Positions 19,996-50,575 of a stretch of DNA of 64,000 nucleotides are shown one piece after another (within the stretch, counting starts at the first letter, position 1; every line of letters starts with the position of its first letter). The notes beneath the pieces are model-generated. The model made no database searches. It saw nothing but the letters and a program-made list of their open reading frames with translations, and had not been told where the DNA came from. The DNA comes from Candidatus Lustribacter telmatis (GTDB lineage: Bacteria > Vulcanimicrobiota > Vulcanimicrobiia > Vulcanimicrobiales > Vulcanimicrobiaceae). The stretch covers positions 49,532 to 113,531 of the forward strand of contig PLRU01000090.1 of assembly GCA_003164045.1 (NCBI GenBank). Reading direction: 5' to 3'. The translations under genes and the position numbers were made by a program.

Positions 19996-21102
19996 ATGCA
20001 AACCCATGAAAAGCCATCTCAGAGCAACGATGAAACCGGTTCGTCGGCGGTAGCGCCGACCGGGAAATTTCTGCGCAACACGTGGTACCCGATCTTGTGG
20101 TCATCGGATCTCGCCGCCGATCAGTTGATCGGGCGCACGGTGTTGGAAGAGCCGATCGTTTTTTTCCGCAAGGACGACGGTGCGCCGGCGGCGATCGCCG
20201 ACATGTGCCCGCACCGCTTCGCGCCGCTGCATCTTGGGAAGCGGAAACCGGGCGACCGCATCCGCTGCCTTTATCACGGGCTCGAATTCGATGCGACCGG
20301 TGCGTGCGCGTTCAATCCGCACGGCGACGGCCGGATCCCGCACAACTCGACCGTCGCAAGTTATCCCATGATCGAGAAACACAAGATTCTGTGGTTGTGG
20401 ATGGGGCACCGCACGCCCGATCCGGCGCTGATCCCCGATTTCAGCATCTTCGATACCGACGATGCGGGTGCGCTGACCAAGTTCGATTACATCACGATTG
20501 CCGCGAACTACGAGCTGGTCACCGACAACCTCATGGATCTCAGCCACACGGCGTTTTTGCATGAAGGTTTGCTCGGCACGGAATTTAGCGTGCGCGGCGA
20601 GTTGACGGTGACCCAAGACGGCAACGCGGTGATCGTTTCGCGCTACAACCGCAACACGCCGGTCGCCAAAGTGCACGACTTGATCTTCCGCCAAGACGGC
20701 CAGCCATGCGACACCTGGGATTCGATCCGCTGGGATGCTCCGGGCTGTTTCGTCCTCGACGTCGGCGTTCACGCCCCAGGCGCAACCAAGGCTGAGGGGA
20801 GCGGGCTCTACGCGGTGCACTTGCTCACGCCGGAGACGGCGACCTCGACGCACTATAACTTCTCCGCCGTACGGCAAGGCATGGCGAACGGACAGAAGCC
20901 GAGCCCCGAGATCAGCAAACAGATCGGCGACATGCGCCGTGACATCTTCCTCAATCAAGACGCGATGATCATCGAAGCGCAGCAAGAAAACATCCGGCGC
21001 TTTCCGGAGCGCACCAAACGTCCGGCGCTGTTCTCAACCGACGCCGGACCCGCCCGGCAACGGCGAGTCCTGAACGCGCTCTTGGCGGCCGACGCCGACT
21101 GA
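19996..21102 (+). CDS. Rieske non-heme iron aromatic oxygenase (VanA/PAO-like)
   Basis: CPHRFAPLHLGKR...CLYHGLEFDATG Rieske ligands; NLMDLSHTAFLHE mononuclear iron site. Confidence 0.92.
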   Translation: MQTHEKPSQSNDETGSSAVAPTGKFLRNTWYPILWSSDLAADQLIGRTVLEEPIVFFRKDDGAPAAIADMCPHRFAPLHLGKRKPGDRIRCLYHGLEFDATGACAFNPHGDGRIPHNSTVASYPMIEKHKILWLWMGHRTPDPALIPDFSIFDTDDAGALTKFDYITIAANYELVTDNLMDLSHTAFLHEGLLGTEFSVRGELTVTQDGNAVIVSRYNRNTPVAKVHDLIFRQDGQPCDTWDSIRWDAPGCFVLDVGVHAPGATKAEGSGLYAVHLLTPETATSTHYNFSAVRQGMANGQKPSPEISKQIGDMRRDIFLNQDAMIIEAQQENIRRFPERTKRPALFSTDAGPARQRRVLNALLAADAD

Positions 21103-21258
21103 GTGTAGGCGCTCGGAACGGCTGAGATCGCGCGAAATCGTCTGACAATCGGCGCATTGCGGGAGCATCGTGCTGCGGTATGCGGTCGTGGCGAGTTGCG
21201 TTCCGAGTGCGGCCACGATGGCGAGTGCTAAGATCATCGATGCAAAGAAGTTGAACAT
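21034..21258 (-). CDS. Small membrane-anchored/secreted peptide with CxxC motif (74 aa)
   Basis: MFNFFASMILALAIVAALGTQLATTAYRSTMLPQCADCQTISRD...; RBS-like AGGGAGA upstream; CTACTAGAGAATTA motif (21276-21289) upstream; overlaps the Rieske gene 3' end by 69 bp. Confidence 0.55.
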   Translation of the reverse strand: MFNFFASMILALAIVAALGTQLATTAYRSTMLPQCADCQTISRDLSRSERLHSVGVGRQERVQDSPLPGGSGVG

Positions 21259-21275
21259 GTCAGTCTCCCTATGAG

Positions 21276-21289
21276 CTACTAGAGAATTA
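21276..21289. promoter_or_regulatory. Candidate BlaI-type operator/promoter motif, site 3
   Basis: CTACTAGAGAATTA on + strand; 13/14 match to site 2. Confidence 0.5.
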
Positions 21290-21310
21290 ATATCTAGCGG
21301 TGCGAAAAAG

Positions 21311-22006
21311 TTACGGGAGCAGCGCGCCGTCGAATGCGTTGCGGCCGTAGCGGCGGAGTTCGTCTGCCGTTACCGGACGGCAGCTGCGGTCGATGTGTTC
21401 GCACCAGCGCACGTTGCGGAAGTCGGCCCCGTTTACGCGTGCGCCGGAGAAGTTTGCACAGCGTTTGTCGTCGTTGTCGCCGCACAGTGCCGCGCCGTTG
21501 AGGTTGGCGTTTTCCAGATTCGCATCGCGGAAATCGGCTCCGGGCAATGAAGCACCGTGCATATCGACGCCGTGCATATCCGCATGCTTGAAATCGCAGC
21601 CGATACATTGGGCCAGAAGCGCGTGGGTATCGACTTTGGCAAACGACATGCGGCCGAGCTCGGCTCCGGTAAGGTGGACGCCGCTTACTCGCGCGGTGCT
21701 GAGCGTTGCGTCGCCGAAATCGGCGCCGGTGAAGTTCGCACCGCGCAGGTCGGCGCCGTCGAGGTGCGCGCCGCTCAGGTCGACGCCGATGAACTTGGCA
21801 TCGCGCAGATCGGCGTCGCGCAAGTTTGCGTTTTGCATATCGGCGCCGATGTAGGTAACCCCGTGCAAATCACGGCCGTGCAGATCCACGCCGCGCATGC
21901 TGCAGCCGATACATTGTGCGCCGAGAGTAACGTTGTCGGCTCCCGCGGGCGTTGCGGTGAAGAGGAGCGCCAGCGCGGCGTACGCGGAGATCGATCGTAA
22001 GAGCAT
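21311..22006 (-). CDS. Secreted pentapeptide-repeat protein with two CIGC motifs
   Basis: MLLRSISAYAALALLFTATPAGADNVTLGAQCIGCSMRGVDLHG... ANLRDADLRDAKFIGVDLSGAHLDGADLRGANFTGADF...LLAQCIGCDFKHADMHGVDMHGASLPGADFRDANLENANL; ORF track start 22063 is an ATGA-coupled alternative. Confidence 0.85.
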   Translation of the reverse strand: MLLRSISAYAALALLFTATPAGADNVTLGAQCIGCSMRGVDLHGRDLHGVTYIGADMQNANLRDADLRDAKFIGVDLSGAHLDGADLRGANFTGADFGDATLSTARVSGVHLTGAELGRMSFAKVDTHALLAQCIGCDFKHADMHGVDMHGASLPGADFRDANLENANLNGAALCGDNDDKRCANFSGARVNGADFRNVRWCEHIDRSCRPVTADELRRYGRNAFDGALLP

Positions 22007-22017
22007 GGTGCATTTAC

Positions 22018-22031
22018 CTACTATAGAATTA
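22018..22031. promoter_or_regulatory. Candidate BlaI-type operator/promoter motif, site 2
   Basis: CTACTATAGAATTA on + strand (minus strand: TAATTCTATAGTAG), 12 bp from ATG 22006; ACTA-N6-TAGT partial dyad when extended. Confidence 0.5.
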
Positions 22032-22059
22032 GTTGCAAGGGGCAAAGAAACGGAAGCGC

Positions 22060-23775
22060 TCATGGGAGCGAGCTTCCGATAAGCTGGATGCCGGATTCGT
22101 TCGCGCCGGTGAGCGAGGCGTGACCGAGATCGACACCCGTTAGCGTGGCGTTGCTTAAGTTTGCGCCGTCGAGGATGGCGTGGCTGAAATCGACGCCGGT
22201 GAGCTTCGCTAGGCGGAAGTTCGCATTCCTGAGAATCGCGTGACTGAAATCCACCCCTTGAATCGTCGAGTGCGCAAAGTTCGCGCCGGCGAGGTTCGCC
22301 CCGGTGAAGTCATCGCCAACCATCGAGAGGTTGCTCAGGTTGATGCCGCTCAAGTTGCGGCCGGAAAAATCGCAGCCGATGCAGTGCCGCACGAGATCGC
22401 GCGTCACCGGGCCGCTCGTGTCGGCCGCAATGACGACGCCGCGCCGGTTCAGCGCGTCGCCGAGTTTTTTCTGAACGTCAGCGGCGATTTTCTGCCCCAT
22501 GTTTTCCGCGTCGTTCGTGTCGACATTCGGATCCACGTCGGCGACGCGCACCGGCGCCGGCGGCGGGACGGGCTTCGCCGCAACCGAGGGCACGGGCGCC
22601 GGCGCCGGCTTCACGACCACATGTGGCGCGGCACTCGGGGCCGGCGCGGACGTCGCGACCTCGTCGATGGATTCCATGGGTTCTACCGCAGGTTGTGCCG
22701 TGTTGCTTTGTGCGAGCAAGATCGGCGGCGCGCTTGCAGCGAGCCCGGCAACGCCGGTGGCCGCAAGAATCGCAATGGTGAACGCCGCCGCGCCGACGTG
22801 ACGCCGGCCGACCGGGCTCTCGTCGAGCAGGCGCTCGATGCGCACGGAAATCTGTTTGCGCGTCAACATCGCGCCGGGCGCAACGACGACGTGTTCGGGC
22901 ATGCGCATCTCTTGCGCCATCCGCCACAGCGTCGATGCGTACCGCTTGGCATCATGCGTGCGCGCAACGACGGCTTCGTCGGCAGCGACTTCGCGTTCGA
23001 GCGCGATGCGCCGGCCGAGAATCCACACCAGCGGGTTGAACCAGAAGAGGCGTTCGGTCGCGCGTTGCGCGAGGTTCGACCAATCGTCGTAGCGCGCAAG
23101 GTGTGCGTACTCGTGCATGATCAGCGGCTCGATGGACGTGAGCCCGTCGGCGGTCGCCATGTCGGTCGGCAAAAGAATGACGGGGCGCCGGAAGCCGACG
23201 GCGATCGGCGTTTCCGTTTCGTACGAGAGGCGCAAGTAGATCTCGCGCCCGGCGGTTGTGGTGAGCCACGGCAGCTCGGTCGCGAGCGTGCCGTCGAGCG
23301 GGCTCGAGCGCGCTTTGAGGCCGCGCACGCGGACGAGGCTGCGGCCGAGGCCGATGAGGCCGATCAGCGCGCCGAGCACCCAGACGCCGACGATGGAGCG
23401 CGCGACAATGGGTGCGAGATCGGGCGGTCCAGGAACGTGCAGAAGGGCCGTGCGCGCCGGTGCCGGACCGGCATCCTCAGATGCGCCGCCGGCGGGAGAG
23501 CCGCCGGCGGCCGTCACGTGCGCCGCAGGTCCGTTCGGCATCGGCTGCATGTCTTCGGCCGCGCCGGCTAAGGTGCCGCGCACGAGCATCACGGCCAGGA
23601 TCGCCACCGGCGCGAAGCCGGCGGCAACGAGGGCGATCGACCACAGCGCCTGCCGCGTCGCGCCGGCCGGCCGGGCGAAGGCGATCAAGCCGGCGACCAG
23701 AGCGCCCAGCACGACGGAGAGCAGCAAGCTGGCAACGAGCGCCCATATCGCCGCGGAGACGATCGTGCCGATCAT
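22060..23775 (-). CDS. M56-family (BlaR1/MecR1-like) membrane metalloprotease with C-terminal pentapeptide-repeat domain
   Basis: N-terminal TM helices, zinc motif LIMHEYAHLARYDDW, third TM, Pro/Ala-rich linker, then HCIGCDFSGRNLSGINLSNLSMVGDDFTGANLAGANF...ANLSNATLTGVDLGHASLTGAN; ATGA overlap with blaI-like stop. Confidence 0.9.
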   Translation of the reverse strand: MIGTIVSAAIWALVASLLLSVVLGALVAGLIAFARPAGATRQALWSIALVAAGFAPVAILAVMLVRGTLAGAAEDMQPMPNGPAAHVTAAGGSPAGGASEDAGPAPARTALLHVPGPPDLAPIVARSIVGVWVLGALIGLIGLGRSLVRVRGLKARSSPLDGTLATELPWLTTTAGREIYLRLSYETETPIAVGFRRPVILLPTDMATADGLTSIEPLIMHEYAHLARYDDWSNLAQRATERLFWFNPLVWILGRRIALEREVAADEAVVARTHDAKRYASTLWRMAQEMRMPEHVVVAPGAMLTRKQISVRIERLLDESPVGRRHVGAAAFTIAILAATGVAGLAASAPPILLAQSNTAQPAVEPMESIDEVATSAPAPSAAPHVVVKPAPAPVPSVAAKPVPPPAPVRVADVDPNVDTNDAENMGQKIAADVQKKLGDALNRRGVVIAADTSGPVTRDLVRHCIGCDFSGRNLSGINLSNLSMVGDDFTGANLAGANFAHSTIQGVDFSHAILRNANFRLAKLTGVDFSHAILDGANLSNATLTGVDLGHASLTGANESGIQLIGSSLP

Positions 23776-24158
23776 GCCGGACCCGCCTTCCGATCGATCA
23801 GCTCGCGCAGGCGAGCCAATTCGGCATCGTCGACCGATTCGGATTCGAGCAGGTTGAGCACGAGCTCGCGGGGCGAGCCGCCGAAGAACCGGGCCACGAC
23901 GTGGTTGACCACGTCGCGCTGGGCCTCGTCACGCCCGACGTTTGCGCGGTAAATGAACGCCCGTCCGGATGCTTTATGGGCCAGGTACCCCTTCTGTTCG
24001 AGGATGCGTAACGTAGTCAGGACGGTGTTGTAGGCAAGTGGCGGATCACCGACCCGCTCCAGCACTTCGGCAACGGAGAGCGGCCCGTTGGTCCACACGA
24101 TGTCCATCAGGCGGTACTCGGCTTCGGTCAGCGTGGGCGTCTTTTTGCGGGCCATGCG
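23772..24158 (-). CDS. BlaI/MecI/CopY family transcriptional repressor
   Basis: MARKKTPTLTEAEYRLMDIVWTNGPLSVAEVLERVGDPPLAYNTVLTTLRILEQKGYLAHKASGRAFIYRANV; start taken at MARKK (approximately 24154-24158; track start is 24191). Confidence 0.92.
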   Translation of the reverse strand, partial: RMARKKTPTLTEAEYRLMDIVWTNGPLSVAEVLERVGDPPLAYNTVLTTLRILEQKGYLAHKASGRAFIYRANVGRDEAQRDVVNHVVARFFGGSPRELVLNLLESESVDDAELARLRELIDRKAGPA

Positions 24159-24188
24159 GCGACGATACATCAGCTCGGGCAGGGCTGT

Positions 24189-24202
24189 CAACTAAAGAAT
24201 AC
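24189..24202. promoter_or_regulatory. Candidate BlaI-type operator/promoter motif, site 1
   Basis: CAACTAAAGAATAC on + strand, in blaI-like/gentisate-dioxygenase divergent region; matches 10/14 of site 2. Confidence 0.4.
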
Positions 24203-24289
24203 GTTTTAATCCCAAAAGCCCCGGAAACCCAGGGCGCTGTGGGGAAGGTCCTGGTTACCGACACCGCCCGCAAGCACCGGAGATCGCCC

Positions 24290-49451: not shown

Positions 49452-50575
49452 GTGGCCTCGACTTTCGCGCTAAGTGCTTCGTGCTTTGCGGAGATGGCAT
49501 CGAGCATCTCTTTGAACGATTGGGCGAACGACTTCACACCGTCGGCGACGAGTTGTTCGGTCACGTCGTGCAGCGAGATGCCTTTGGCCGCGAGCGCGTC
49601 GATTGCGCCTTTGGCACCGGCGATGTCTTCGTAGATCGTGTCCGGATTGATCACGCCGTGATCGAGCAGCGCGTCGAGCGTGGCCGGCGGCATCGTGTTT
49701 ACCGTATCGGTGCCGACGACGTTTACGACGTACATCAGGTCGTCGTACTTCGGGTTTTTGGTCGACGTGCTGGCCCAGAGCGGGCGTTGGACCTTCGCGC
49801 CCTTGGCCGCGAGCGCCGCGAAGCGGTCGCCGCGGAAGAGCAGCTCGAATTTGGCGTACGTCAGCTTGAGGTTCGCGATGCCGGCTTTGCCCTTGAGACT
49901 CTCGAGCGGCTCGCCCTTTGCGATGCGCTCGTCGAGGGTTTTGTCGATCATCGTATCGATGCGCGACACGAAGACGCTGGCGACCGATGCGATCTTGTCG
50001 ATGGGCAGGCCGGCCTTGACGCGATCCTCGAGCCCTTCGATATAGGCGTTACCGGCGGCCGCATACTGATCGACCGAGAAGAGCAGCGTAACGTTGATGT
50101 TTATCCCGGCCGCGATGCTGGCGCGAATCGACGCGATGCACTCCGGCGTGCCGGGAATCTTGATCATCACGTTCGGACGGTCGACGGCTTTCCACAAACG
50201 CGCGGCCGCGTCGGTCGTCGCCTTCGTGTCGTGCGCGAGCGTCGGCGAGACCTCGAGCGATACGTACCCGTCGAGCCCGTTCGTGCTCTTGAAGACCGGC
50301 GCGAACACGTCGCATGCGCTGCGAATATCTTGGATCGCCAGCGCTTCGAACAAGTTCTGCGCGTCGTGCTCGCTGCCGATCAGGCTCTTGAGCTGAGCAT
50401 CGTAGTCGGTTCCCGTCCCGATCGCGTGTTCGAAGATCGTCGGGTTCGACGTTTGACCGCGCAGCCCAAGGTCGACGAGCTTCTGCAACTCGCCGGAGGC
50501 GAACATCGAACGGCGGATGTTGTCGAGCCAGACGCTCTGACCGGCGGCGGCGAGTTCCTTAAGTTGGTTTCCCAT
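49448..50575 (-). CDS. tal: Transaldolase
   Basis: GQSVWLDNIRRSMFASGELQKLVDLGLRGQTSNPTIFEHAI; PNVMIKIPGTPECIASI. Confidence 0.95.
   Translation of the reverse strand: MGNQLKELAAAGQSVWLDNIRRSMFASGELQKLVDLGLRGQTSNPTIFEHAIGTGTDYDAQLKSLIGSEHDAQNLFEALAIQDIRSACDVFAPVFKSTNGLDGYVSLEVSPTLAHDTKATTDAAARLWKAVDRPNVMIKIPGTPECIASIRASIAAGININVTLLFSVDQYAAAGNAYIEGLEDRVKAGLPIDKIASVASVFVSRIDTMIDKTLDERIAKGEPLESLKGKAGIANLKLTYAKFELLFRGDRFAALAAKGAKVQRPLWASTSTKNPKYDDLMYVVNVVGTDTVNTMPPATLDALLDHGVINPDTIYEDIAGAKGAIDALAAKGISLHDVTEQLVADGVKSFAQSFKEMLDAISAKHEALSAKVEAT

Follow-up and report, generated by a model that had tools for sequence, protein, structure and literature searches.

A BlaI/M56 protease locus with a pentapeptide-repeat ectodomain in Eremiobacterota, a probable envelope-signaling switch

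The closest described systems to the locus reported here are BlaR1/MecR1 with BlaI/MecI in Staphylococcus and Bacillus. They consist of a BlaI-type repressor, which binds a TACA/TGTA-type operator, and an adjacent M56 gluzincin with four transmembrane (TM) helices and a C-terminal ectodomain that senses penicillin, and their targets encode beta-lactamase or penicillin-binding protein (PBP) 2a. We analyzed a 64,000-nucleotide stretch of the 5.0-Mb draft genome of Candidatus Lustribacter telmatis (“the window”, positions 49,532 to 113,531 of contig PLRU01000090.1; contig C14 of genome G000 in our labeling). On its minus strand lie, in this order, blaI, an M56 protease gene whose product ends in pentapeptide repeats (PPR), a gene for a secreted PPR protein and a 74-aa open reading frame (ORF). 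As a whole, this locus is best explained as a repressor-cleavage switch of the BlaI/BlaR1 type that has an extracytoplasmic PPR beta-helix in place of the penicillin-binding sensor, a reading to which we assign a probability of roughly 0.65.

The locus shares with BlaR1/MecR1 and BlaI/MecI the repressor, the neighboring four-TM gluzincin with its C-terminal ectodomain and the best fold match. It differs from them in its sensor, in its conserved site, CTAA-N4-TTAG, and in its predicted targets, which are exported PPR, CBM9/DUF5916 and small proteins rather than beta-lactamase or PBP2a. A BlaR homologue of M. tuberculosis is likewise an M56 protease that occurs with BlaI and without a penicillin-sensor domain (PMC9834060); unlike in the present locus, no PPR ectodomain has been described there. 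The PPR parts resemble the exported proteins Rfr23 (2O6W), Rfr32 (2F3L/2G0Y) and At2g44920 (3N90), quadrilateral beta-helices with disulfides at their ends, but none of these has been described in connection with a protease or repressor.

Nothing on an M56 protease with pentapeptide repeats, on this regulon, on an Eremiobacterota BlaI or on DUF5916 in this setting was found in the open literature searched, outside of which most subscription journals lie. This agrees with the initial annotation of the window, made from its letters, which had put the system forward as a candidate for an undescribed one. Each component belongs to a known kind; what is new is the exchange of the sensor, together with the operator, the target set and the matched secreted partner. 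A switch that has been known almost exclusively from beta-lactam resistance, BlaI/M56, would have been refitted with another sensor and regulon in soil Eremiobacterota, a phylum hardly studied experimentally. An exact operator, a short gene list and one protein-protein contact are predicted, and exported PPR and CBM9/DUF5916 proteins, most of them without known function, gain a regulatory context.

The repressor and the M56-PPR protease

The first gene, blaI (23772..24155, minus strand), encodes a 127-aa BlaI/MecI-family repressor (Penicillinase_R, PF03965, 2.5e-32; 112 bits against a cut-off of 22.6). It matches the solved BlaI/MecI proteins, and the alignment places a putative cleavage site LVLN|L where those have LVLN|F. 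We set its start at the ATG at 24155 (MARKKTPTLTEAEYRL), which is backed by the promoter and the homologues; an alternative TTG start at 24191 was rejected because it falls within the -35 box. The predicted operator ACGTATTCTTTAGT (24186..24204, minus strand) runs into the -35 TTGACA of the blaI promoter, and its footprint is kept across relatives. The -10 box, TATCGT (24162..24167, minus strand), lies 6 nt upstream of the ATG (24156-24167 including the spacer), a layout that recurs in close relatives and in the same-genus genome G001. The blaI mRNA is therefore probably leaderless.

The blaI frame overlaps by ATGA with that of the BlaR1-like M56 metalloprotease (22060..23775, minus strand; Peptidase_M56, PF05569, 1.7e-30). 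The HEYAH motif (H221EYAH225, residues 221-225) and E262xxxD266 make up the gluzincin site HExxH...ExxxD; these residues and also D230 and Y279 were invariant in 30 sensors. The cryo-electron microscopy study of BlaR1 names H201, E202, H205, D210, E242, D246 and Y261 as catalytic or stabilizing residues (PMC9834060), and the counterparts of these were invariant in all 30 aligned sensors. Hydropathy peaks marked four TM segments (residues 13-31, 47-65, 123-141 and 327-345), which would place the protease between TM3 and TM4 and the C-terminal ectodomain presumably outside, as in BlaR1. In the AlphaFold model (mean pLDDT, the predicted local distance difference test, 78.5) the TM and protease parts and the C-terminal beta-helix were confident and the linker was disordered. 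The BlaR1 structures 8ext and 8exp ranked top in Foldseek, 8exr aligned at 2.8 A over 181 columns, and the beta-helix lay 0.9 A from 2g0y. Pfam detected no penicillin-binding (class-D-like) sensor domain in the protease C-terminus and only pentapeptide repeats there; the PPR part begins with HCIGCD at residue 464 and yields a CIGC-led ectodomain (residues 465-571; 22060..22383, minus strand). As catalytic residues, four-TM topology and AlphaFold model all match BlaR1, an envelope-signaling, repressor-cleavage switch with a non-penicillin sensor is probable. The protease is the product of the only M56 gene in the window genome.

These results bear out most of what the initial annotation had read from the sequence. 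The minus-strand BlaI, the ATGA-coupled M56 protease with HEYAH and a C-terminal PPR, the secreted PPR protein and the 74-aa ORF are all present by sequence and Pfam, and so are the CxxC tags QCIGCS and QCIGCD (secreted PPR protein), HCIGCD (protease) and QCADC (74-aa ORF). Its placement of the PPR ectodomain in the position of the penicillin sensor is supported by Pfam, AlphaFold and Foldseek, the modeling of the protease being a check that it had itself proposed. None of the NCBIfam models for BlaR1, BlaI and Qnr/MfpA reached its cut-off on the locus proteins, so these are family relatives and not BlaR1, BlaI or Qnr/MfpA themselves.

Scanning a genome collection with the M56 core recovered 34 M56-PPR loci in Eremiobacterota. 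BlaI was adjacent and a CxxC preceded the repeats in every one of them (34/34 for both), and the secreted PPR gene came next in 27 of the 33 with enough flanking sequence. M56 proteins of other phyla in the same scan bore other C-termini. A search for the secreted PPR protein in 60 related genomes gave matches in 33, around which the order BlaI / M56-PPR / PPR recurred repeatedly. In a tree of 74 modules, many forks of which are unresolved, modules grouped by their place, as first or second module and in sensor or secreted protein (M1, M2, S1, S2), with 10 changes compared to 39 after shuffling. By these sequence comparisons the M56-PPR fusion is old and its neighborhood conserved; a chance fusion of a PPR tail to M56 is ruled out by the 34/34 conservation and the grouping of modules by position. 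The annotation had suggested examining both the neighborhood and the CIGC motif among orthologues, and both proved conserved.

The one comparable fusion came from a Gloeobacterales metagenome-assembled genome (MAG; L236), the only case in 96 genomes of its class. M56 and C-terminal pentapeptide repeats share one frame there as well; it differs in having no CxGC and in being followed by an efflux-type adaptor gene, with no secreted PPR partner seen. In a plasmid search for M56-PPR no record covered both parts, the matches being separate PPR proteins.

The CTAA-N4-TTAG operator and the predicted regulon

Across relatives, CTAA-N4-TTAG stands upstream of blaI and runs straight into the -35 TTGACA; in many cases another copy lies close to the start site. 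We searched 61 genomes with the pattern WANNNNWTAGTTGACA and obtained 75 sites, compared to 11 with the reversed pattern as control. We examined 68 of these sites: blaI is driven from 33 of them, and the majority of the rest precede a few recurring families of exported proteins. These targets are the secreted PPR protein, 690-750 aa CBM9/DUF5916-type proteins, DUF4097-type exported proteins, 52-61 aa secreted peptides and short ORFs ending in FxGWGP. Six matches were left out of the regulon, two as unlikely (L147, L185) and four as unclassified (L173, L184, L188, L190). The putative operators abut or overlap promoters.

The window variant, ATTCTNTAGTWG, occurs four times in the window genome: before blaI, before the secreted PPR gene (ACTAATTCTATAGT, 22020..22033, minus strand), before the 74-aa ORF (ATTAATTCTCTAGT, 21278..21291, minus strand) and at one unlinked place. 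A TTGACA/TAGCCT promoter accompanies this fourth site (G000:C80:134813), as does a second operator, and the gene downstream encodes a 715-aa exported protein of the CBM9/DUF5916 type, probably an outer-membrane protein. The 15-mer ATTCTTTAGTTGACA was found in the window genome at two promoters only, those of the blaI locus and of this CBM9/DUF5916 gene. Independently of the operator, neighbor clustering placed a CBM9/DUF5916 gene in 19 other loci directly after the secreted PPR gene or, where there is none, after M56. Operator prediction and gene order therefore agree, the same family being under an unlinked operator here and operonic in relatives.

Two groups of small predicted targets were also seen. 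Short ORFs ending in FxGWGP stand just before blaI or under their own operator copy (L085, L088, L096, L111 (upstream of blaI), L152 and L199) and could possibly encode a small regulatory or leader protein. The 52-61 aa secreted peptides (L158, L175, L176, L180, L192 and L203) carry the same operator and a K(I/V)IAxVVAHPHP-like motif and belong to no Pfam family.

The secreted PPR protein, the proposed switch and its alternatives

The secreted PPR protein (21311..22006, minus strand; 231 aa) has a signal peptide, two CIGC modules, with QCIGCS and QCIGCD 102 residues apart, and a conserved C-terminal tail with four cysteines, as judged from Pfam, the alignment of homologues and AlphaFold. Its PPR part and that of the protease both show the A(D/N)LXX repeat with about 20 residues per coil (Pentapeptide, PF00805, 3e-36 and 3e-22, respectively), and the AlphaFold models have a strand every 20 residues; the model of the secreted protein (pLDDT 88.1) is a confident beta-helix. 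A Qnr/MfpA-type gyrase-protecting protein is not indicated, as NCBIfam scores are far under the cut-offs and the signal peptide speaks for an exported rather than a cytoplasmic protein. The 62-aa secreted protein at L032:8538-8726 has the look of a minimal form: signal peptide and C-terminal tail are retained, along with a single CIGC and one stretch of repeats.

Three class-level relatives (L035, L036 and L041/L071) have no separate secreted gene, and their sensors end in the four-cysteine tail of the secreted protein. With a profile of this tail, the sensor C-terminus of these three scored 64-78 bits as one domain, and no other sensor exceeded about 16 bits. The secreted PPR protein thus probably docks on the sensor, given that it consists of the same modules and has been fused to the sensor in one lineage.

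We propose that, at rest, BlaI dimers on CTAA-N4-TTAG would keep blaI-M56 repressed, along with the genes for the secreted PPR and CBM9/DUF5916 proteins. A cue from the envelope, other than a beta-lactam, would alter the state of the PPR ectodomain, and the M56 active site would then cut BlaI near LVLN|L, inducing the regulon. The secreted PPR protein, docked on the PPR rod of the sensor, might report the state of the envelope or switch the sensor off, an accessory role like that of CpxP or RseB. A more specific version, which we offer tentatively, is that membrane protease and secreted protein communicate through matching, CxGC-bracketed PPR beta-helices stacked end to end, with the secreted helix as feedback ligand and the CBM9/DUF5916 outer-membrane protein as conserved output; this would amount to an envelope-signaling class not described before.

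On the other hand, the secreted PPR and CBM9/DUF5916 proteins could be downstream effectors only, serving surface or uptake functions without touching the sensor, and the common fold could date from an ancient duplication. Both belong to the predicted regulon by operator and operon, and the PPR fold is common and easily duplicated; however, the secreted-type tail has been fused to a sensor and the two-module layout matches between sensor and secreted protein. We regard this explanation as somewhat unlikely.

Another possibility is a redox or metal sensor, in which the signal passed to the M56 protease would be an altered state of CxGC pairs that act as reversible disulfides or as ligand sites. 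A CxGC opens each module of about 100 residues, and such modules come in twos, about 102 residues apart, in the majority of sensors and likewise of secreted proteins. C465 and C468 are invariant in 30 sensors, and 25 secreted proteins share six invariant cysteines, the CxGC pair and four more. An exported CxxC is, however, expected to be oxidized, the operon and regulon yielded neither a haem or metal motif nor any redox enzyme, and in the secreted protein model CxGC sits in the first beta-helix strand of each module, as for a cap. The exported PPR protein Rfr23 (2O6W) has a disulfide bracket, Cys39-Cys42, with the spacing of CxxC and a proposed structural role (review PMC8145042). A redox or metal sensor is therefore quite improbable, and by analogy with Rfr23 CxGC is most likely a structural disulfide bracket that caps each module. 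The annotation had suggested that CIGC binds metal, haem or disulfide partners; we found no evidence for metal or haem, and the disulfide has Rfr23 as its nearest structural precedent.

We consider it very unlikely that the locus is an ordinary resistance switch for beta-lactams or peptidoglycan damage that merely has an unusual ectodomain. The homology of BlaI and M56 to the beta-lactam system is clear, but the sensor has no penicillin-binding domain by Pfam and the operator targets examined include no beta-lactamase or PBP.

Several observations weigh against the repressor-cleavage switch with a PPR sensor and matched partner as we propose it. The sensor encoded in the window has a single CxGC module, compared to two in most relatives; a few M56-PPR genes have no secreted PPR gene beside them; and the evidence for docking consists of homology and the fusion. 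The DUF5916 and CBM9_1 matches of the 715-aa protein are borderline, just under the Pfam cut-offs. As to the regulon, the window genome has a second, weak BlaI-like match, and in several relatives the same operator precedes the blaI of non-PPR M56 paralogues. Regulon assignment is thus not exclusive there and targets in those relatives may be shared.

Same-family blaI genes with CTAA-N4-TTAG, at least some of them paired with a non-PPR M56, were noted at L179, L182, L193, L195, L196, L207 and L213. Given this shared site, the paralogous systems may cross-talk.

The 74-aa ORF and a reduced locus

The 74-aa ORF (21034..21258, minus strand) has its own upstream operator, a ribosome-binding site (AGGGAG), a signal-peptide-like start and QCADC. 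Over its last ~23 codons it lies antisense to a Rieske-type ORF on the plus strand (19996-21102), at the 3' end of the latter. Against a profile of the secreted-PPR N-terminus it scored 13.2 bits, third among 5562 short ORFs and behind two true fragments. Membership in the family of 52-61 aa secreted peptides was rejected, as that profile gave 6.8 bits. No homologue in its own right was found. Some relatives carry a second secreted PPR at this place. The likeliest reading is that it is probably a truncated paralogue of the secreted PPR protein; since the best chance ORF in the same control reached 12.9 bits, this is favored, not proven. The annotation had suggested that the secreted protein and this peptide are effectors or ligands; for the peptide, its lack of conservation and its resemblance to a truncated secreted-PPR N-terminus speak against a ligand role.

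In the same-genus genome G001 (L232, G001:C151:34000-48000), an orphan blaI has kept an intact operator and promoter, and M56, the secreted PPR gene, the 74-aa ORF and the neighboring Rieske gene are missing together, which speaks for sensor and secreted protein as parts of one system. As G001 is a draft MAG, this joint loss may be a mis-assembly.

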